Below are positions 18,886 to 48,902 of a DNA stretch of 52,522 nucleotides, piece after piece. A model generated the notes under the pieces. The model saw nothing but the letters and a program-made list of their open reading frames with translations, made no database searches and was not told the DNA's origin. Source of the stretch: Polyangiaceae bacterium (GTDB lineage: Bacteria; Myxococcota_A; Polyangia; Polyangiales; Polyangiaceae); contig JANXOF010000043.1 in NCBI GenBank assembly GCA_025353725.1, forward strand, positions 1 through 52,522, in the 5' to 3' direction. The translations under genes and the position numbers were made by a program. The stretch's first letter is position 1. Each line of letters starts with the position of its first letter.

Positions 18886-19806
18886 ATGGACCGACCCTCT
18901 CCGCTGCCCGAGTCGCCTGAGTCGCCCGAGTCGCCTGAGTCGCCCAAGTCGCCCAAGTCGCCTGAGTCGCCCGAGTCGCCCGAAGAAGGTCCGTCGCACC
19001 ATCCTCGCAAGACGGCTCCGCAGATGGCCACTCCGGTTCGTGGCATCACCGTCGACCAACTTCTCACGCATATCACGCCTCGCGCTTGGGTCACTCCGAC
19101 ACTCGCGTTGCTCGTTGTCGTGGGCTTCGGCGTCGAGCTCGCGCTCGGCGTTTCCGTCACGAGCCCGACCGCTGAGCAGCTTTTTCGCGCCGGAGGCGAG
19201 TTCGGTCCCGCCTTCGCCGACGGAGATTGGTGGCGCGCGTTTACTTCGATGTTTCTTCACGCCGGACTCCTCCATCTGGCGTTCAACCTATGGGCTTTTT
19301 GGAGCGTTGGCCGCCTCACCGAGCGTATCTTTGGTAATAAGTCTTTTCTAGCTCTTTACCTTTTGAGTGGTGTTGGTGGTTCGCTCGTCTCGCTGTCGTG
19401 GAATCCGCTTGTCGTGGGCGTCGGCGCATCGGGAGCCATTTTTGGCGTTTATGGCGCGCTCTTGGCGTTTATGGTCCTGCACCGCGGGGTATTTCCGAAA
19501 GAGTATCTCGTTCGCCAAAGAAACAGCATTCTTGGGTTCGTCGGGTACAACGTGGTCTTCGGTCTTTCGCAGAAGAATACGGATATGGCCGCTCATGCCG
19601 GCGGGCTTCTCGTCGGCGCGCTCGCGGGCGCGGCTCTTTCACGCGACGTTCTCCATCCCGCGGCGCATGCCGGTCGCCGAAGCGTAGCGGTAGCCCTTCT
19701 CGCGACGCTTCTCGCGCTCGCGGCGTTCGCGGTGCGCGCGCATCTCTTCAATGTTCCTGAGATCAAAGCCCATCGTAGTGCCAACGCGGCGCTCAGTCCT
19801 TTGTAG
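18886..19806 (+). CDS. Rhomboid-family intramembrane serine protease
   Basis: 306 residues. A cytoplasmic N-terminal tail of Ser-Pro-Glu/Lys repeats (about residues 6-35) precedes a six-helix rhomboid domain. The catalytic serine is in GVGASGAIFGVYG, the catalytic histidine in MAAHAGGLLVGAL, and the oxyanion asparagine in LLHLAFNLWAFWSVG. The enzyme cleaves transmembrane segments of membrane proteins; the substrate is unknown. The start at 18886 has a poor ribosome site, and an ATG at 19024 would remove the repeat tail. The next open frame begins eight bases after the stop, suggesting the original operon continued into the now broken two-component genes. Confidence 0.93.
   Translation: MDRPSPLPESPESPESPESPKSPKSPESPESPEEGPSHHPRKTAPQMATPVRGITVDQLLTHITPRAWVTPTLALLVVVGFGVELALGVSVTSPTAEQLFRAGGEFGPAFADGDWWRAFTSMFLHAGLLHLAFNLWAFWSVGRLTERIFGNKSFLALYLLSGVGGSLVSLSWNPLVVGVGASGAIFGVYGALLAFMVLHRGVFPKEYLVRQRNSILGFVGYNVVFGLSQKNTDMAAHAGGLLVGALAGAALSRDVLHPAAHAGRRSVAVALLATLLALAAFAVRAHLFNVPEIKAHRSANAALSPL
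18910..18981 (+). repeat. 9-bp tandem repeat encoding Ser-Pro-Glu/Lys
   Basis: Eight copies of a 9-bp unit, gagtcgccc or gagtcgcct, with two units starting aagtcgcc. They encode E/K-S-P tripeptides in the tail of the rhomboid protein. The third-position c/t alternation shows they are older or less recently expanded than the array at 1-126. Confidence 0.9.
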
Positions 19807-39894: not shown

Positions 39895-41088
39895 CTAATC
39901 CGTGTCCTCGCTCGTCGCGGTAGGCGGCGCTGATGGCTCGTCGAACACACGTTGAACCTTCTCCCGGCCCGACCAGCCGAAACTGACCGAGAGCTGAGGC
40001 TCCTGGTCCTGCGCGCTGCGACTTACACCGAGATGTATTTGCATCTCGCGCGAACGCACGTCGCGTTCAACCGGGGGAACAGGGCTTAGCGGTGAGAGCT
40101 GAGACGCGGGCCTTTTCGCAAGGCGTCGTTTGATCGATTTGGCGACCGAAGAGGCCATCGACGTGGCGTTCGCGGCATCTCCACGCTTTGCGTCGTGTGC
40201 GCTTTCGTCGGTGGTGGGCGCTTCATTGCTAGGGATTCGACGACTCGGAAGTTCGACGGGCGCGACGATGACTGCCGTGTCGCCATCGTTCGACGAAACG
40301 GCCAGCGGCATGCGGACGTAGGCGCACCCGCCATCGTGCGCGCTGATGCCGTCTTGCCGCATAGCTTGCATAGGACCCAAACGCGCGGTCGCCTGCGTTG
40401 CGGGGCGAACGACGACGAATTGCACGTAGCGAGTGACTTCCGCACGCTCATCGCGACCTGCGTAGACCACAACGCCGCCGATCGCGCTTGCGACCTTTAC
40501 GAGCGAAAGAGTCGCGCGCCCGATCAGTCGCACGCCGTGCGTAGAAGGATCTATCCAAGCGTCAATGGACTCGAGCTTCACGTGACCGTTCGCGCGCACC
40601 AATTTCTCACTATGAACGGCGCCGACGCCCGCGGACTCGTTGCTTTTCGACGCTGGCCAGAGGTTTACCTGTTCCGCTAGGGCTGGGGTCCACTCGTGCG
40701 CTTCAGCGTCGCCGTCATCCCCTTGTCCCATCAACGCAGAATCCGATAAGCACGCGGATGCTTCGTCTTCTTTCGCGTTGAATCCGTCGTTGTCGCGTAT
40801 CTGAGCCGCACGCGTCTCGCTCGTGACAACGCTGACGTGGCGCTGCGCCCATGGCGTTTCCGGCGGAAACTTAGGCGCGGCTACAAATAACCCTGGCACT
40901 TTTTCGTGACCGCCGACGAAAGAGGGTTTTTTCGATGTTGGCATTGTTCCGATTCGGCCGCCAGGCAAGTCGCTGTAGGCGAGGGCGTCGCCGGCTCGTG
41001 CCGAATGCGAGAATGCACAAAGTGCGGAGAGCGCGCAGAAGGTCGTCGCAACTACCCGCGTGCGCCGGAGAGACGCGAGCGGTCTCAA
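39895..41088 (-). CDS. Secreted hypothetical protein, coupled to the cytochrome gene
   Basis: 397 residues from a TTG at 41088 whose first bases overlap the TGA of the preceding gene (TTGA), a classic translational-coupling arrangement. The N-terminus is a signal peptide (RVVATTFCALSALCAFSHSA, cleavage near SARA-GD). The mature protein has a C-terminal beta-rich domain (about 150-260: GVRLIGRATLSLVKVASAIG, VTRYVQFVVVRPATQA) and a Ser/Pro-rich, charged C-terminal part ending VSFGWSGREKVQRVFDEPSA. No family is recognised. Coupling indicates a job with the propeller cytochrome upstream, perhaps as a periplasmic partner. Confidence 0.8.
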   Translation of the reverse strand: MRPLASLRRTRVVATTFCALSALCAFSHSARAGDALAYSDLPGGRIGTMPTSKKPSFVGGHEKVPGLFVAAPKFPPETPWAQRHVSVVTSETRAAQIRDNDGFNAKEDEASACLSDSALMGQGDDGDAEAHEWTPALAEQVNLWPASKSNESAGVGAVHSEKLVRANGHVKLESIDAWIDPSTHGVRLIGRATLSLVKVASAIGGVVVYAGRDERAEVTRYVQFVVVRPATQATARLGPMQAMRQDGISAHDGGCAYVRMPLAVSSNDGDTAVIVAPVELPSRRIPSNEAPTTDESAHDAKRGDAANATSMASSVAKSIKRRLAKRPASQLSPLSPVPPVERDVRSREMQIHLGVSRSAQDQEPQLSVSFGWSGREKVQRVFDEPSAPPTATSEDTD

Positions 41089-43115
41089 AGCGTCCTCAGA
41101 AAGGCTTCAAGGGCGTTGATGTCGCCCGCGTCAAGGTGGGCGGTCTTGCCCATTTTACCGTCGCTCTTTCTTAGGAGTTCACCGAGCGTGGAATAGCGTC
41201 CGTCGTGAAACCAAGGGCCCGTGCCACCGACGAGGTGGAGCGTTGGCGTATTGAACTGCCCGTCGCGGTCGGAGGAGTGTTTGCTTCCGACGTCGTGATT
41301 TTTCCCGTCTGTATAGGATTCACCGCTGTGACAACCCGAGCAGCCAGCCTCGTTCGAGGTAAAGATTTGCTTCCCGCGATCGACCGACGGTTGATCCCTC
41401 GAAAGGACGGCGGGAGTTGGCATTTGCGAGATGTAGGTGACGAGAGAGTCGAGCTCGATGCTACGGAGGCCGCGTCCACTGAGGCGGTCAAACGTGTTGC
41501 CGAGGTGGCTGTGGAGCGTCGACTCATTGCCATTCCATGAATACGGAGCGGAGCGCGTGACGCGCCCGGCAAGCATCATGGACCGACGCGGCCCTTCGGG
41601 GGTCGCCCATGTGATCGCGTCGTCTCGGCCGTCGGGGTGACAGCTTGCACACGCGCGCCCATCGGAGGCTATGCGCGCGTCACCTGCCGCGTGAAAAAGA
41701 ATGCGCCCGAGCGCGTACTCCGCCGCGAGCTTTTCGCGCAGGGGAGGCATCACCGTCTTTTGAACGAGCGAAGGTGACACTTTGTCGTCGACGAGCTCTG
41801 TGCCGCCCAGCGGAAAGGTCGAAAGCGTGCGATCGAACTGAGACCACACCACGCCGCGATGTTTCTCCGAGTCCACCGCAATGCCGCTTGGGCCCGCGCC
41901 TACCGTCCACCGACGGCGTTCGGACGTAAGCGGATTCGCCGACGTCGCGTCGTAGGCAACAACGGCGTCGAACCCGTAACACGTCACGAGTAGCGACTTC
42001 GTTTTCGCGTCGATGGTTGCCGCGCGGGGCAAGAGACACTCGGGTCGCGGGTCGCGCGCGTCGTTCCCACGTCGCCCCGTGAGGTTTAGGCGAGAGACGC
42101 TGAGACTCGCGGTCATGGCCGCCTTCGCCCCCTCGTCGATGACCGCGACCGCAGCCGATTCGGTGGGTTCGTTTTCGTCACCGTAACCGTCGGGTCGACC
42201 TTCGAGGTCACCGGGGTCGACGAGTACCTGCGGCGCGAAAATGCGTCCGCTTACCGAGGATGACTTCGCGAGTGCAAAGCCCTGACAGCTCGGGTGTCGC
42301 TCACCAGCTTTTCGTTGTTCCGCGTCGAGATCGTCGAGCCGTGTCGTGTCGCCGGCGCTGTCCTTCGCGAGTTCGCGCCTGCGCGTCTCGAACATCTTCC
42401 GCTCGCGTGGATCTTGGCCACGGAGCGACACTTGCGATGCCTCGTGCTTCGCCCCGACGAGGTCGACCACGCTTAGCACTGACCCGACGGCGTGCGACAC
42501 GAAGGCTGTTTTTCCGTCCTCCGAGACCACGGCGGAACGTGGCTCGCGAGGAAGCCGAGTCTCGAAACGCACCAACAGCGAACGGCCGTCGTACTCCGTG
42601 AGTCGCTGACCCCATCCGGAGGTCACGACAAAAGACGCGTCCTTAGGGCTCGCGGCGATAGCGATGGGCTCTGCAGGTGTGGGCACGCTGCATCGTTTCG
42701 TGAGCGGTGCGTTCGCGTCCGTCGCGCGGAGGACGAGGAGCTCATTTTTATCTCGGAGTGTGACGAGTACGCGGCCGTCGAGCGCGACGTAAACCTGGCT
42801 TGGGGTTGCCGCGAGGGGAGTTTCGGCGAGTTGCGCTCTCGAGTCGAGATCGACTGTGAGCAGCGTTTTGCCGTCCTCGTCGGCGACGTACGCGACGCGC
42901 CGACCCCCGACACGTGCGAGAGCTAGCGTGGCGCCGGCGCCGGTGTGTCCCAACGGTTCCGCGTTCGATGCTCCTTCGCATGAGAGGTCGGACGCCGCGT
43001 GGATAGCTGCGGTCTCCGCGCGGGGTCGGGGGAACGCGCCTGGGCCATGGGCGCAGGCACCTGCGGCTGCCCCCGCGATGATCATCGAAATACCGCAAAT
43101 TCGCGATCGAATCAT
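41085..43115 (-). CDS. Beta-propeller lipoprotein with di-heme cytochrome c domain
   Basis: 676 residues from ATG 43115 with GGAG eight bases upstream. The lipoprotein signal is GISMIIAGAAAGAC. Residues about 60-430 look like a beta-propeller, with repeated strands of the YVADEDGKTLLTVDLDSRA type and SEDGKTAFVSHAVGSVLSVV. The C-terminal third has two heme c CxxCH motifs, CASCH and CSGCH, and the ending LVGGTGPWFHDGRYSTLGEL typical of MauG/cytochrome c peroxidase-like proteins. A role in periplasmic electron transfer or oxidation is likely; the substrate is unknown. The frame continues upstream to 43211, but the lipoprotein start is preferred. It is translationally coupled to the downstream secreted-protein gene. 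Confidence 0.9.
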   Translation of the reverse strand: MIRSRICGISMIIAGAAAGACAHGPGAFPRPRAETAAIHAASDLSCEGASNAEPLGHTGAGATLALARVGGRRVAYVADEDGKTLLTVDLDSRAQLAETPLAATPSQVYVALDGRVLVTLRDKNELLVLRATDANAPLTKRCSVPTPAEPIAIAASPKDASFVVTSGWGQRLTEYDGRSLLVRFETRLPREPRSAVVSEDGKTAFVSHAVGSVLSVVDLVGAKHEASQVSLRGQDPRERKMFETRRRELAKDSAGDTTRLDDLDAEQRKAGERHPSCQGFALAKSSSVSGRIFAPQVLVDPGDLEGRPDGYGDENEPTESAAVAVIDEGAKAAMTASLSVSRLNLTGRRGNDARDPRPECLLPRAATIDAKTKSLLVTCYGFDAVVAYDATSANPLTSERRRWTVGAGPSGIAVDSEKHRGVVWSQFDRTLSTFPLGGTELVDDKVSPSLVQKTVMPPLREKLAAEYALGRILFHAAGDARIASDGRACASCHPDGRDDAITWATPEGPRRSMMLAGRVTRSAPYSWNGNESTLHSHLGNTFDRLSGRGLRSIELDSLVTYISQMPTPAVLSRDQPSVDRGKQIFTSNEAGCSGCHSGESYTDGKNHDVGSKHSSDRDGQFNTPTLHLVGGTGPWFHDGRYSTLGELLRKSDGKMGKTAHLDAGDINALEAFLRTL

Positions 43116-43267
43116 GTCGAAGTCTCCGGGGTACTGCGCTCGCGCAGGCGCACCAGCGTCGCCGTTTAAGGATACGCGTGGGGCTGCGGCGCGCTTCCGT
43201 AGAGCGCACAAATCGTAGAAAGTTCCTGGTTGCTTTTGCCTACACCAAGTCCGTGTAAGATACCGAC

Positions 43268-44041
43268 ATGAGGACTCTTACGGTGTCGCAGCTCACGGCG
43301 TTACTCGATGACCAAGTCGCCCGTGAGCCGGGCGGCGCGGTAGCGTTCGATGGCGACGGTACGCTTTGGTCCGGGGACATTGGCGAAGATCTCTTCAACG
43401 CGTTGCTCGACGGAGGCGCCGTCTCGACGGAAGCGAGCCACGCGCTTGCGGTCGAAGCGGAGTCACACGGCGTTGCGTCGACGGGGAACGGAGTTACCGT
43501 CGCACGTCGGATCCATGCCGCCTACGTCGCGGGCGTGTTCCCCGAAGAGCGCGTATGTGAGTTGATGACCTGGGTGTTCGCGGGGTGGTCCGTGGAGGAG
43601 GCCGACGCGTTTGCAGAGCGAGTCCTGACCAACGTTGGCCTCGAGCGGCGGCTCCACGCCGAAGCCATGGCGATCGTGACGTGGGCGCGCGAACGCGGAG
43701 TGGAAACTTTTTTGGTGAGTGCCTCACCGCGGGTCGTCGTTGAACAGGCTGCACGGCGCGTGGGGTTTGACCTCACGAACGTAGCCGCGGCGACCGAACG
43801 TCGCGACGCGGATGGAAAGATTCAGTCCTCGGTCGTGCGGCCGATCCCGTACGGTCAGGGAAAAGTAACTCATTTGCGCGCAAAGCTCGGCGGCAGACCT
43901 CTCTACGCCGCGTTCGGCGACAACGCGTTCGACATTCCGATGCTTCGCGAGGCGCGGTTGCCCATGGCCATTCGCCCGAAGCCGCGGCTGGTCGAGCGCG
44001 CGGCCGAGGTAACCGACTTGAGCGTCCTTGCGAGGCTTTGA
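43268..44041 (+). CDS. HAD-superfamily IB phosphatase
   Basis: 257 residues with the HAD phosphatase motifs in order: AFDGDGTLWSGDIGEDLFNA (motif I nucleophile DxDGT), FLVSASP (motif II Ser), lysine in PYGQGKVTHLRAKLGG (motif III) and AAFGDNAFDIPMLREARLPM (motif IV). It resembles SerB-like and other small-molecule phosphatases of subfamily IB; the substrate is not known. The last 68 bases (43973-44040, encoding RPKPRLVERAAEVTDLSVLA and the final RL) occur again, decayed, at 47513-47590. There is no strong ribosome site; TAAGAT at 43256-43261 could be a -10 box for a near-leaderless transcript, but no good -35 was seen. Confidence 0.93.
   Translation: MRTLTVSQLTALLDDQVAREPGGAVAFDGDGTLWSGDIGEDLFNALLDGGAVSTEASHALAVEAESHGVASTGNGVTVARRIHAAYVAGVFPEERVCELMTWVFAGWSVEEADAFAERVLTNVGLERRLHAEAMAIVTWARERGVETFLVSASPRVVVEQAARRVGFDLTNVAAATERRDADGKIQSSVVRPIPYGQGKVTHLRAKLGGRPLYAAFGDNAFDIPMLREARLPMAIRPKPRLVERAAEVTDLSVLARL
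43973..44040 (+). repeat. Direct repeat A: 3' end of the HAD gene
   Basis: This intact copy is the C-terminal coding end of the HAD phosphatase, from cgcccgaa to gaggctttg. The degraded second copy, with two indels and some substitutions, is at 47513-47590. Confidence 0.85.
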
Positions 44042-44141
44042 CACCGGCGTTTCGCGAGGCTTCTGACCGATTTTCGACCAAGCCTCAGAAAAGTCAGTGC
44101 AAGGGATGCACGTCGCCTCTTTTGACGCTACGGGATGGGCG

Positions 44142-45260
44142 ATGAGAAGACCTTGCAGAGCAAATTTCACGAAGGGTGCATTTGCGGTTAGCGCGGCCCT
44201 GGCAGCCCTGATTACGCTGGCAGCTCCACCCGCGTATGCCGAATTCGTTGCGCTGCGGACCGACCGCACTTCGGATTGTTCTCATCGACTCCCGCGCGCG
44301 GAGGCGCTCGGCGTCCGTGCCCAATGTTCTTGGCTCATGGACGACAGTGCTCCGCTTCCCGCGTGGGCGGGCCGATTGGACTTTTCCTTTGGAGAACTCA
44401 CCGAGTCGCAGTTTCGTGGGCTGCGCCGCGCCTATGGAGGATGGACAGCGGCGTCCGCCGCCGAGCCGACGTACGAAAGCCAGCGATCGTATGGGCTCGT
44501 CGACTTCCTCCCGCCCGTGGTTCAGGCTGTCAACGGTCATCGCTATCAACCCGAAATAGGGACGATGCCGGACTTTCTGACGGCCGCGGCGCGCCTCGGT
44601 TTGCCCGTCACGCCCGAACAGGAAATCTCTCTGTATTGGAATTGTTGGGGAGTGACTTACGAGGCGTTGAGAGGCAACGAGCGCAGCCTTACAGTCGTGC
44701 AGGCGTCTTCGGAGCTCATGCTGGAGACCCTCCGGAACGCATCCACGTTGATGCGGTCAGTCTCTGAGCCGACGGAATTTCCGCTCTCGTCTTTTGCGGG
44801 GGGCGTGAGGCCTGGAGACGTCGTCCTCATCCTGCATAAGAGCGGTAACTACGATTACCTCGACCACACCGTCGTGGTGCTCGACGACGGCATCTACTTC
44901 GAGAAAGCTGGAAGTGGAGCCGACGTCCCGATTCGCATCACCGATGAGCAAACACTGGCAAGCATTTGGACGCCGGGCGTTTTTCGGTACGAGCTCCGAA
45001 GGCTCCGTTCAGAAACGCAACTCGCGCCGCCACTCGAAGTGTTCTCGGCACGTTCACACGGAGTCTTGGCTCGATTTCCACGATTTGCCGAACTCCCCTG
45101 GAGCTCGCTCGACCGGCTGACGGTTGACTGGTCGCCCCTCGGAACGTTGAGGCCCGAAGGATTCGCGTTTTTCCGCTCGGCTTCGTTCACCTTCGACCAA
45201 GCGAACGCGGGTGCGCGAGCTCGTCTGCCTGCGGCTGCCTACGTTCCGCAGACGTTCTGA
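44142..45260 (+). CDS. Secreted papain-fold-like protein
   Basis: 372 residues from ATG 44142 with a GGGATGGGCG sequence just upstream; earlier in-frame starts (44097, 44106) are less likely. A typical signal peptide (FAVSAALAALITLAAPPAYA) precedes the mature protein. A segment with ISLYWNCWGVTYEALRGN, then GVRPGDVVLILHKSGNYDYL and DHTVVVLDDGIYFEKAGSG, has the Cys ... RPGD ... His arrangement of NlpC/P60 and CHAP-type cysteine hydrolases, which cut peptidoglycan or other amides; the conserved His would be in LDHTVVV. The match is by pattern only. The gene follows the HAD gene and lies in the segment bounded by the repeated HAD tail. Confidence 0.7.
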   Translation: MRRPCRANFTKGAFAVSAALAALITLAAPPAYAEFVALRTDRTSDCSHRLPRAEALGVRAQCSWLMDDSAPLPAWAGRLDFSFGELTESQFRGLRRAYGGWTAASAAEPTYESQRSYGLVDFLPPVVQAVNGHRYQPEIGTMPDFLTAAARLGLPVTPEQEISLYWNCWGVTYEALRGNERSLTVVQASSELMLETLRNASTLMRSVSEPTEFPLSSFAGGVRPGDVVLILHKSGNYDYLDHTVVVLDDGIYFEKAGSGADVPIRITDEQTLASIWTPGVFRYELRRLRSETQLAPPLEVFSARSHGVLARFPRFAELPWSSLDRLTVDWSPLGTLRPEGFAFFRSASFTFDQANAGARARLPAAAYVPQTF

Positions 45261-45524
45261 GCGCCGCCGGTAGTCCTCGGGCGAGTAGCCCGAAGTAGCA
45301 GCCGATGGCTGGCAACCGGGCATTTGCCGGGGCGGAGAGGGCGAGCTACGTGTGGCGGGCCGAATGTGTGCTGTCGTTCGACGCACCCCCGGGCGTGGGC
45401 GAAGGCTAAAACTAGCGTTTTGGTGTTCTGTGAGGGAGCGCAAGAACCATTTGATGAAGCGATGGAAGTTGGGGGGACAGCCATCTTGATCTGCTGACCG
45501 CCGGGCTGAGGCTTTAGTTTGTTC

Positions 45525-46154
45525 CTAGCAGGCTCGCTCCGCGATCTTGACGGCGTTGCCGGCTCGCATAAAGAGCTCCTTGATCGCATTCTCGACGTCC
45601 GTTCGCGACCCTTGGTACGCGTCCCATTTGTTGTAAGCGCAGGGAGCAATTTCAATTGCCCCATCAAGAAACGGATATCTATAACTCACTTTTGAAGAAT
45701 TCTTCGATGGGCGCGTGGCGTCGATCTTCTTCCAAATACCTTCGACTTTTGCATCGACTTTGTCGAGCATTCGTCTTTTTAGCTGGATGCGAAACGTTGT
45801 GAGCTGTTTGATGAGTTTTTCGTGTTTCTTTGGATAACGTTTCTTAATGTCGTTTTTTGCGTCATCAGTCACGCTCTCTGAGAGCACAGTAAGCGGTGTG
45901 TGATGGTTTAGAAAATAATCTCCAAGCACGGATGCAAACGGTTTGTCGCTTTTTTGATTGCGTGTAAGAATCGCGAGTCCGAGAGCTTTGACCGACTTTT
46001 CATAGGCCTGCTGCATGAAGTAGCGACGATGACACTCATTTAGTTGCTTCGCCGCCGAGGCTTTCTCGTCCGACTTGGCTTGTTCGAGCCAGACATTCGG
46101 TTGCAGGAGCTTCACCCGGTTTTCTTCGCTCGCACCGGTGCGCTTGTCGTACAA
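45525..46154 (-). CDS. AT-richer hypothetical protein, downstream part of a two-frame gene
   Basis: 209 codons starting at a TTG (46154), with no ATG at the front. The text is lysine-rich (KNDIKKRYPKKHEKLIKQLT, MLDKVDAKVEGIWKKIDATR) and less GC-rich than its neighbours, consistent with transfer. In the same frame a stop (TAG) lies just upstream of the start, while the preceding ORF overlaps by 43 bases in the adjacent frame. A shift from AGC-TCG to AGC-CTC at the overlap would join them smoothly into ...SELQRTS-LDVLYDKRTG.... Either this is a frameshift mutation in one original gene of about 340 residues, or a programmed -1 shift. No family is recognised. Confidence 0.6.
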   Translation of the reverse strand: MYDKRTGASEENRVKLLQPNVWLEQAKSDEKASAAKQLNECHRRYFMQQAYEKSVKALGLAILTRNQKSDKPFASVLGDYFLNHHTPLTVLSESVTDDAKNDIKKRYPKKHEKLIKQLTTFRIQLKRRMLDKVDAKVEGIWKKIDATRPSKNSSKVSYRYPFLDGAIEIAPCAYNKWDAYQGSRTDVENAIKELFMRAGNAVKIAERAC

Positions 46155-46540
46155 GACATCGAGCTAGTCCGCTGGAGCTCACTCTCGGCGTATTTAATGA
46201 GTTTTTTACCGATTGCTGGATGTGGCAATATTGGCTCGGCGGCCGCCACCGCTCGCGCGAAGGAGGTATTTCGCCTCACCGCGTTTCGAAAGTCTCTGTC
46301 CCGTCCTAACAGTAAATTGAGGGTATAGCGGAAGTCTTTTGATGGACTGAATTCCATGGGGCGTTCGGCATGGGCATCCGGTGGCATATCCGGCATGACT
46401 TCCAGTATCCAGACGCCGGGCGTTTTGGTCTTGAGCCAGAGTACAGCGTCGAGACGCTCGTCGAGCTTTCTGTGAGCCTCCGCCAGCGCCTGGACGGCGG
46501 TCCGAATTTCGTTCTCGCGCTCTTCGGTGGTCTTCGCCAT
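46112..46540 (-). CDS. AT-richer hypothetical protein, upstream part of a two-frame gene
   Basis: 142 codons from ATG 46540 (MAKTTEERENEIRTAVQALA). It contains a helical N-terminus and an unusual motif WLKTKTPGVWILEVMPDMPP, followed by RYTLNLLLGRDRDFRNAVRR and IKYAESELQRTS. Its last 14 residues lie in the overlap with the next ORF and look like an out-of-frame tail (SMSCTTSAPVRAKKTG). Best read as the front of one gene with the ORF at 45525-46154. No function is recognised. Confidence 0.6.
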   Translation of the reverse strand: MAKTTEERENEIRTAVQALAEAHRKLDERLDAVLWLKTKTPGVWILEVMPDMPPDAHAERPMEFSPSKDFRYTLNLLLGRDRDFRNAVRRNTSFARAVAAAEPILPHPAIGKKLIKYAESELQRTSSMSCTTSAPVRAKKTG

Positions 46541-47738
46541 TGTCCGAATAGTTTAGCGTCCTCTACCCTGCCAGCTTGCCGTCTTTTGCCGCCATTCAAC
46601 GGATGATTTTGCGGTGTTATGCCGCCACGGTATTTGCTTGTAGATGACCACACCAGAAGTACGTGCTGGCGGAGGTTTTGCAGGGTCATGCCGCTACTTG
46701 AGAGGTTACCTTTGCAGGATCATGCTGGCAGGAAGCCGTTCGAGCGACCGCGCTGCGGAAAGACTCGTTCCGAGGACGGCGCTGGTGCAGTTAGAGGGTA
46801 TCCCTTTAGCCGGGCGGTCATCCTGAGGGAGAGTCGATCAAGCTAGCCCGCTATGGCTCGCAAGGGAATGGCACCGAGGCGGCGCGGGGGCTTTCCACCG
46901 AGTGCGCGCCCTTCGCCTGCGAGGGTCGGGTGTGCAAGACCGCTGGCGCCTAGAGGCTCGACCGCGCTGCCTTTGGCGCCTGCAGCCGGACGGTATTCGC
47001 CTCCCGCTCTCCGAGGCGCCGCCGAGCGGACCGGGGGACCTTTTGCACCGAGGTGGGCCGAGAAGCGCCACGGGCCGGGTGGAGTTGGCTTCTATCAAGC
47101 GTCCTCCCGGCGCCCAGCGGTCCGATTGCGTGCGCGACGCCAGCGTTTTCAATGTGTGTCGGGAGCATCGTTCGCCGAAACACGCGCCTGATTTGGGCGT
47201 CTTCGTGTTGTGCGTGCTCTCGATCACGTGTCCGTCGGAACTCCGTCGCGCGCGTGGTTTCGTCATCTTTCGCCGATGTTTCGAAGGAATCTGCGGCGCG
47301 TACGACCTGCAAGCCGAGGTTCGCCCCATCGCGCGCCCGAGTCGAAAATTCTGGACTGGTGTCACGCCGTCGCGCACGCCGCATACGGCGACCAAACTCA
47401 TCTTTGCTGAGGGCGACAGCGCGGCGACTTTTTCGTGAAACGGATCGAGGAGCTGCTCGTACGCGGTGACATCGCGCGCCTGCGAGGCGAGCTCTTTGAA
47501 TGTCAAGCCGTCCGCCCGAAGCCACGGTTTGCTCGAACGCGCGGCCGAAGTGGCCGAAGTGACCGACTTGAGCGTCCTTGCGAGGCTTTGGCGCGTTCGT
47601 ATCGAGCGGCTTCTTCCAGCGTTCCGAGCGTTCACTCGCTGCGGAGAGGCGTGCGGTTCGTTTCTCGCTAGAATCCCTTGAAGCGAGCCTGCTACCGACA
47701 CTACAACCCCGCTTCTTCTCAATGCTTGGGAGCCACCG
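46541..47738. other. 1.2-kb stretch without a convincing gene
   Basis: Long open frames exist on both strands, but they are GC-driven shadows or extend into the acyl-CoA dehydrogenase gene. One minus-strand patch around 47390-47520 (GLTFKELASQARDVTAYEQL, FHEKVAALSPSAKMSLVAVC) reads more like protein than its surroundings and may be a gene fragment, but no full gene can be built. The region contains the decayed HAD tail at 47513-47590. It looks like a junction of relics. Confidence 0.6.
47513..47590 (+). pseudogene. Direct repeat B: decayed copy of the HAD-gene 3' end
   Basis: From cgcccgaagcc to gaggctttg this matches 43973-44040 with a few substitutions, one single-base insertion that breaks the frame, and a 9-base tandem duplication (gccgaagtg twice). 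Translated past the shift it gives LLERAAEVAEVTDLSVLARL, against LVERAAEVTDLSVLARL in the intact gene. GCGAGGCG precedes both copies at similar distance. It is a relic, not an active gene. Confidence 0.8.
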
Positions 47739-48902
47739 ATGAACTTCGATCTGACCGAAGAGCAGCGCCTCGTTCGTGACACCGCGCGGGACTTTGCCGC
47801 GCGCGAGATAGCCCCGAAGGCCTCGGAGATCGACAAGAGCGGTCGTTGGCCCGCGGAAATTATCAAAAAAATGGGGGAACTCGGGTTCCTCGGCATGGCC
47901 ATCCCCGAAGCGTACGGCGGCGCCGGCCTCGACAGCCTGTCGTACGCGCTCGTCATGGAGGAAATCAGCGCGGCATGCGCCTCCTGCGGCGTCATTATGA
48001 GCGTCAACAATTCGCTTTTCTGCGACCCGATCTACAAGTTCGGAACCGAGGCTCAGAAGGACGAGGTCCTTCGGGCTTGCGCCTCGGGCGCGAAGCTCGG
48101 ATGTTTCGGGCTGACCGAGCCGATGAGCGGTTCCGACGCGCAAACCATGAGCACCAACGCCACGAAGACTGCGGACGGCTGGGTCATTGACGGCGCGAAG
48201 AATTGGATCACGAACGGGCCGCACGCCGATTACATTCTGGTCTTTGCCGTCACTTCGAGGCCTGCGCCGGACGCGGCCAATCCGAATCCGAAGATCAAAC
48301 ACACGGCCTTTCTCGTCCCCAAAGGAACGCCGGGCTACACCCAGGCGTCTCCGGACCATAAGCTTGGCATTCACGGCGCGCACTCGTGCACGGTCTTCTT
48401 TGAACACTGCAAGGTGCCCGAAAGCGCCGTTGTGGGGAAAGTCGGCGAAGGCTTTAGAGTCGCGATGGCGACACTCGACGGCGGGCGTATCGGCATTGCC
48501 TCGCAGGCTCTTGGTATCGCAAAAGCCTCACTTGACGTTTCGCTCGCGTACGCGAAAGAGCGGAAGAGTTTCGGTGTCCCGATTGCGCAGCACCAGGCCA
48601 TTCAGTTTATGCTGAGCGACATGGCGACGGAGCTCGATGCCGCGCGTTTGCTGACGTGGCGCGCCGCTTTGATGAAGGACTCGAACGAGCGGCATACGAT
48701 GCAAAGCGCTGAGGCGAAGCTCTACGCGAGTGAGATGGCGACGCGTGTGGCGCACAAAGCGATACAGATTCATGGCGGCTACGGCTACTCGTCAGAATTT
48801 CCGGTGGAGCGTCACTACCGTGACGCACGAATCACCGAAATCTACGAGGGAACGAGCGAGATTCAGCGCATCGTGATCGCCGCAAGCCTGCTCAAGGCCT
48901 GA
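47739..48902 (+). CDS. Acyl-CoA dehydrogenase
   Basis: 387-residue FAD enzyme that introduces the alpha,beta double bond of acyl-CoA in beta-oxidation or amino-acid breakdown. ATG 47739 follows GGGAG. Typical blocks: LVRDTARDFAAREIAPKASE, LGCFGLTEPMSGSDAQTM, SQALGIAKASLDVSLAYAKE, and the C-terminal RDARITEIYEGTSEIQRIVI, where the Glu of IYEGTSE is the catalytic base of the short/medium-chain group. Chain-length preference cannot be read. It is the first gene of a three-gene plus-strand set with the AgmX-like lipoprotein and a second dehydrogenase. Confidence 0.95.
   Translation: MNFDLTEEQRLVRDTARDFAAREIAPKASEIDKSGRWPAEIIKKMGELGFLGMAIPEAYGGAGLDSLSYALVMEEISAACASCGVIMSVNNSLFCDPIYKFGTEAQKDEVLRACASGAKLGCFGLTEPMSGSDAQTMSTNATKTADGWVIDGAKNWITNGPHADYILVFAVTSRPAPDAANPNPKIKHTAFLVPKGTPGYTQASPDHKLGIHGAHSCTVFFEHCKVPESAVVGKVGEGFRVAMATLDGGRIGIASQALGIAKASLDVSLAYAKERKSFGVPIAQHQAIQFMLSDMATELDAARLLTWRAALMKDSNERHTMQSAEAKLYASEMATRVAHKAIQIHGGYGYSSEFPVERHYRDARITEIYEGTSEIQRIVIAASLLKA

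Follow-up and report, generated by a model that had tools for sequence, protein, structure and literature searches.

A worn second copy of a HAD-family phosphatase gene end in a Polyangiaceae genome, possibly the stump of a displaced native tail

Positions 1 to 52,522 of contig JANXOF010000043.1 of a Polyangiaceae bacterium (assembly GCA_025353725.1, here G000; 6.6 Mb in 98 contigs, 97.6% complete) were analysed; this stretch is referred to as the window. Near its right end, an intact gene of a HAD-family phosphatase is followed, 3.5 kb downstream and in the same orientation, by a worn copy of its own tail (Table 1). This second copy (47507-47627) ends 111 bp ahead of the start of an acyl-CoA dehydrogenase gene at 47739, and the interval between the two tails holds a gene provisionally termed papain-like, a pair of adjoining genes on the minus strand and a stretch of gene fragments. 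As the origin of the second tail, displacement of a native gene end is favoured here over integrase-mediated insertion and over duplication with decay.

Table 1. Features of the HAD-dehydrogenase junction, with positions in the window
Feature	Position	Strand	Basis or remark
Intact HAD-family phosphatase gene, 257 amino acids	43268..44041	+	Pfam HAD, E 3e-17; neighbourhood as in relatives on both sides
Repeat copy 1, comprising the final 24 codons, the stop codon and the next 36 nt	43967..44077	+	Alignment, extension tests
Perfect 29-bp core, copy 1	44012..44040	+	Sequence comparison
Papain-like gene: hydrophobic N-terminus; Cys (NCWG) and His (LDH) common to its two relatives	44142..45260	+	
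Gene B, HEPN-like	45525..46115	-	GTG start overlaps the stop of gene A by 4 nt; open frame back to TTG at 46154
Gene A, 142 amino acids, partner without known family	46112..46540	-	Beside B at related loci
Truncated left end of IS21-family insertion sequence (IS) element	46607..46801	+	78% to G000:C13:235443-235637, IstB gene (PF01695, E 2.5e-39) following there
First 61 bp of a ~275-bp dispersed repeat	46828..46888	+	Own-genome matches
Decayed kelch piece: end of one kelch-repeat gene, intergene, start of the next	46895..47346	+	80% to G000:C1:134375-134825
Repeat copy 2, probable displaced HAD tail: 1-bp insertion, 9-bp duplication, lost stop, downstream flank	47507..47627	+	
Perfect 29-bp core, copy 2	47562..47590	+	Sequence comparison
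Native upstream region of the acyl-CoA dehydrogenase gene	47671..47738	+	Matches the corresponding region of G004 at 75% over 71 alignment columns, E 1e-4
Acyl-CoA dehydrogenase gene, conserved downstream neighbour of HAD	47739..48902	+	

A blastn comparison of the HAD gene with its own 3.7-kb interval returned the tail copy with 78.6% identity over 84 positions (E 8e-16), followed by a runner-up match with an E of 0.35. When the DNA of the gene was compared with the 6.6-Mb assembly, the tail copy was the sole other match (E 1.4e-12). The gapped alignment covers 43967-44064 and 47507-47614; ungapped similarity extends to 44077 and 47627, with 23 of the 37 positions after the perfect core identical, 36 of these 37 lying past the stop codon. 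Among about 52,500 placements in the window just one unrelated placement equals this number of identities, and the extension score after the core was reached by none of 300 random stretches. The repeat is thus 111 nt long and ends 36 nt beyond the stop codon, while its 29-bp core occurs twice in the window. Upstream of 47507 a continuation of the similarity appears plausible by eye but does not exceed chance (P 0.44). Since nothing was found upstream of 47507 and the similarity weakens past the stop codon, the left edge of the repeat is sharp and its right edge fading. The preliminary description of this DNA, in which the last 68 bases of the HAD gene recur at 47513-47590, had the place, the 1-bp insertion and the 9-bp duplication right; aligning the repeats together with their flanks, the check proposed there, confirmed the similarity and showed that its extent is larger.

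A codon alignment of the two tails over 24 codons contains eight base differences in seven changed codons, of which five are synonymous and two conservative (I>V and V>L). In addition, copy 2 has acquired an in-frame 9-bp duplication and a single-base insertion and has lost its stop codon. Random substitution would be expected to yield about five replacement codons, and two or fewer have a P of 0.009-0.024, depending on the share of transitions; a BLOSUM score as good as the observed one has a P of 0.0002-0.0018 under random substitution. The decayed kelch fragment of the interval served as a yardstick. Compared with its relative on contig C1, it displays 17, 12 and 11 differences at codon positions 1, 2 and 3 (about 90 positions each), with 21 gapped positions over the whole length, and is without any sign of coding constraint, as there is no excess at third positions. 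Because the differences between the HAD tails are mainly synonymous or conservative, copy 2 seems, judged from its sequence, to have been the end of a functional HAD gene during most of the time in which it diverged, and its break seems to be late. The statistics behind such a divergence of two working gene ends are modest, with eight differences. The last nine codons are identical in both tails and occur in none of nine relatives whose tails were compared, a set that leaves out G010. This suggests that the tails split within the lineage of G000 or very near to it, and the split seems to be younger than the separation from the compared relatives.

HAD matches were found in 48 of the 58 genomes searched, G000 included, and among the 47 other genomes gene order was judged at 19 loci with wide flanks. 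At 12 of these the acyl-CoA dehydrogenase gene known from the window lies downstream of HAD in the same orientation; G001 and G008, in which the dehydrogenase is present and a close HAD gene absent, stand outside this count. A tail copy downstream of HAD, searched over up to 9 kb per locus (2.2 kb in G010 and 7.3 kb in G009), is absent from all 19, so that G000 alone has one among 20 loci. An 82-nt match in G009 (E 9e-6) concerns a different part of the HAD gene. The conserved order and the lack of a second tail elsewhere bear out the geometry first proposed, in which an intact gene, accessory DNA and a displaced tail beside the old neighbour succeed one another. As a separate observation, the dehydrogenase of G001 (L093:4087-5216) matches as two pieces with the middle missing, which reflects either a broken gene or an assembly fault.

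Measured in relatives between the matches, the two genes lie 38 to 70 bp apart in G010, G020 and G016, which amounts to direct adjacency. The distance grows to about 1.2 kb in G030, and it ranges from 0.6 to 3.1 kb across eight members of the genus, for which 12 genomes, one per species and including G000, were compared. In these eight (G002, G003, G004, G005, G006, G007, G009 and G011; L033-L036 and L038-L041) the gap holds one copy or two tandem copies of a gene termed Y, which encodes about 175 amino acids with a hydrophobic C-terminus. The single copy scanned has no Pfam match, and gene Y has no match in G000, G001, G008 and G010. Candidate remnants of gene Y in the interval of the window (E 0.001 or weaker, scattered over both strands) were taken as noise. 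In G004, G007 and G009 the gap also carries, on the opposite strand, a diiron-like gene that bears a weak resemblance to AurF (E 3e-5, which misses the curated cut-off) and has no match in the 97.6% complete assembly of G000. A tree of four proteins from 15 genomes (dehydrogenase 1 present in 14, dehydrogenase 2 and HAD in 13, a lipoprotein-like protein in 15 of 15) clusters G000 with G004 and G007 (support 99) and then with G009 (95). Since these closest relatives carry genes here that are absent from G000, content appears to have been replaced and not inserted into an empty site; most likely, the ancestor had gene Y and the diiron-like gene at this junction. The inspection of the same locus in relatives, suggested earlier as a test of insertion, thus gave a divided answer: HAD and the dehydrogenase adjoin in G010, G020 and G016, but other genes lie between them in the closest relatives.

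Upstream of HAD lies a gene common to G003, G006, G007 and G009, which indicates that it stands at its native place. A cytochrome c/beta-propeller gene and its neighbour (39895-43211, minus strand) are found upstream of HAD in the window and in G011. At the other inspected loci these two genes are not beside HAD, although at G004 the contig reaches just 281 bp upstream. Variability thus extends to the region ahead of HAD.

The first gene of the interval had been described as secreted and papain-fold-like. A hydrophobic N-terminus is present, and its Cys and His residues are kept in its relatives, proteins of two metagenome-assembled genomes of Xenococcaceae (cyanobacteria) with 39-42% identity. 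A match in Pfam, PHROGs or NCBIfam was not found, and the papain/NlpC-like label is a putative one that goes by motifs. Among 107 other genomes of the family there is a single weak match (G083, E 3e-4), with none in the 11 other members of the genus. A structure predicted from three sequences reached a mean pLDDT (predicted local distance difference test) of 40 and was too poor to use.

Downstream of it lies what had been read as one less GC-rich gene in two frames. The lower G+C content stands (0.49 in B and 0.57 in A, against 0.62 for the window), but instead of a single gene there is a conserved gene pair: a frameshifted gene was ruled out, since the pair recurs at related loci with its two genes in differing relative frames. 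Gene B has matches in 11 of 108 genomes of the family, G000 included, with no other in the genus, and a B profile matches in 14 of 289 genomes of the class, several of these weakly. Twelve related loci with B were collected; leaving out a weak one in G110, A adjoins B at 10 of the 11 inspected, with no match to gene A in G124. The relative frames of A and B vary between these loci, where overlaps are given between stop-to-stop frames and are therefore upper limits. At some of them, namely in G063 and G107, gene B is interrupted. G107 and G124 were left out of the alignments of both proteins, and the interrupted B of G063 out of the B alignment. PF05168 (HEPN) matches seven of the nine aligned B members at an E of up to 1, the best being 3e-5; on the first B member it scores 15.5 bits, under the cut-off of 22 bits. 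The B of the window alone has no Pfam match at an E of 0.1, whereas the B profile finds PDB entry 1wol (E 0.0028). The B alignment contains no conserved Rx4-6H; its invariant columns hold SYRYPF, with no conserved H after the R. A nucleotidyltransferase (MNT) match is absent in all 10 A proteins, which gave three one-member DUF matches (best DUF7360, E 0.0025) and no convincing family, and PADLOC on B yielded nothing useful. From these sequence comparisons, the A-B pair is a candidate for a toxin-antitoxin or defence module in which no nucleotidyltransferase is recognisable. Toxin-antitoxin pairs of HEPN and MNT proteins (PMC7641770, PMC3710099) are similar in that a HEPN-like protein lies beside a small partner; they differ in that A lacks the nucleotidyltransferase match and B the conserved Rx4-6H.

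The remainder of the interval, noted earlier as 1.2 kb of gene-poor sequence, consists in part of three truncated fragments, and each of these has relatives elsewhere in this genome. The dispersed repeat (L125:2996-3271) has 20 matching stretches in the genome, the piece in the window and the query included, a sharp left end and no Rfam match. The kelch fragment is a decayed piece of a gene pair of the kind seen on contig C1 (L123:2045-7062), where two similar genes with Cys-rich ends adjoin and the upstream one has Kelch motifs. Between this fragment and the HAD stump, the 160 bp at 47347-47506 have no relative in a DNA search of the own genome. The IS end, the dispersed repeat and the kelch tail are later or older debris relative to the displacement. 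Elsewhere in the window, a perfect 9-bp tandem array (CGATGGGCT, 14 copies) occupies the contig end at 1-128, and a further 9-bp array is located at 18906-18983.

Copy 2 may well be the stump of the native HAD tail, displaced by recombination that was either anchored in HAD at one end or proceeded via a two-copy intermediate. What is observed is the repeat and how far it runs, the synonymous bias, the order of neighbours in relatives, the lack of an integrase match in the frames tested and the fragments in the interval; the donor, the recombination at a single end and the order of events are inferred. An older version of HAD would have stood directly ahead of the acyl-CoA dehydrogenase gene, with 47507-47627 as its stump. 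DNA of a close relative, in which that relative's own HAD end was followed by other genes, would then have recombined in, its homologous end anchored in HAD. The other end could have been joined illegitimately inside the old tail, that is, by homology-facilitated illegitimate recombination; as a second route, a circular molecule could have entered by one crossover, and the redundant second HAD gene might later have been cut down by deletion. The outcome of both would be a complete HAD gene upstream and an old tail left behind. HAD-anchored recombination is suggested because its expected traces are seen together: a complete gene, new DNA, an orphan tail in the same orientation, a sharp break inside the old tail, and orthologue-like change in tail and flank, with native sequence behind. 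Past the stop codon the similarity continues at a lower level, as in two orthologous gene ends, and homology to G004 sets in again at 47671, shortly downstream of the stump.

Several observations weigh against this reading. The closest relatives (G004, G007 and G009) do not have an empty site, and the diiron-like gene and gene Y found there require a prior additional loss in the lineage of G000. No donor carrying the inserted genes behind HAD was found among the 11 other genomes of the genus. The signal of selection is modest, with eight differences over 72 coding positions, and the final 27 coding positions are without a difference (P 0.018 for an even spread), which could mark a recombination core and would also fit the core of an attachment site (att).

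Some integrative elements enter at the 3' ends of genes and restore the gene. In the preliminary description the interval was proposed to be a relic of such an element in the HAD 3' end. If an integrase brought it in, the two tails would represent the left and right attachment sites attL and attR. This explanation, which we consider rather unlikely, would account for the direct repeat of a gene end beside an intact gene, for the perfect 29-bp core lying right where the gene ends, for the HAD-dehydrogenase adjacency in three relatives and for the absence of the contents from the other 11 genus members, apart from DNA matches below 50 bp in four of them. However, an integrase island predicts an integrase, similarity limited to the core and unconstrained change before the core. 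As already noted in the preliminary description, no integrase is visible: recombinase matches are absent from the interval (Pfam on nine frames, PHROGs and NCBIfam on five each), and the five tyrosine-recombinase (PF00589) matches of the genome are all on other contigs. The similarity extends beyond the core by 45 nt on its upstream side and 37 nt on its downstream side, and a crossover in the core would leave the part of copy 2 ahead of it unconstrained in attR, in contrast to the observed synonymous bias. The content partly resembles repeats and kelch genes of the same genome, and the closest relatives have other genes at the spot. A viral or plasmid origin of the content found no match either: the HEPN-like gene has no relative on viral contigs or plasmids and the papain-like gene none on plasmids, viral contigs not having been searched for the latter nor a phage record collection for either.

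Plain tandem duplication of the gene end followed by decay had been named as the alternative; accessory DNA would later have entered between the two copies. This course of events is unlikely. It would explain the repeat without foreign DNA as well as the lineage-specific codons common to both tails, and the region is one that gathers IS and repeat fragments. Nevertheless, it predicts neutral change in copy 2, with about five replacement codons where two are seen, and is therefore disfavoured by the synonymous bias; moreover, the insertion would have to fall exactly between the copies. Finally, a chance repeat or a C-terminal motif widespread in unrelated DNA, which had been put forward as a possible refutation, is hardly conceivable and is itself refuted by the E value of the tail copy and its standing as the single further match in the genome, together with the absence of tail copies at the 19 other HAD loci.

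Displacement of a gene end has parallels in known systems. At rhs loci, according to a published report (PMC2935791), laterally acquired gene ends displace existing ones by homologous recombination and leave dissociated tips, and circular intermediates have been proposed. The locus described here would be alike in that an old gene end is displaced and an orphan tip remains, but it concerns an ordinary phosphatase gene, a single stump and no toxin or immunity function. For the effectors of the type VI secretion system (T6SS) of Vibrio, homology-facilitated illegitimate recombination has been proposed (PMC5361080); there too, one homologous anchor is combined with an illegitimate other end, and the old 3' part is moved downstream of new genes. 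Arrays of immunity genes are retained in that case, in contrast to the dead gene end alone at the HAD locus. In E. coli conjugation, homology-facilitated illegitimate recombination is rare, with 3x10^-10 per recipient, and circularisation with a single crossover also occurs (PMC3240628).

Most likely, the locus is an ordinary genome scar left by a known kind of event, and it cleanly illustrates a process known above all from toxin genes of bacteria. It is decidedly more speculative, and in our estimate improbable, that this genus uses the HAD-dehydrogenase junction as a site of exchange refilled via HAD-anchored recombination, that displacement of the rhs and T6SS type works on ordinary genes and that the HEPN-like module came with the incoming DNA and may hold the insert by addiction. 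The HEPN-like pair is a separate lead. If the displacement reading is right, tail displacement would have left a stump that can still be read at a metabolic locus of ordinary kind, at which selection for toxin diversity cannot be invoked, and a repeat of a gene 3' end would not by itself prove an integrase-made island. Whether two tails differ synonymously or neutrally would then provide a simple test for other loci.

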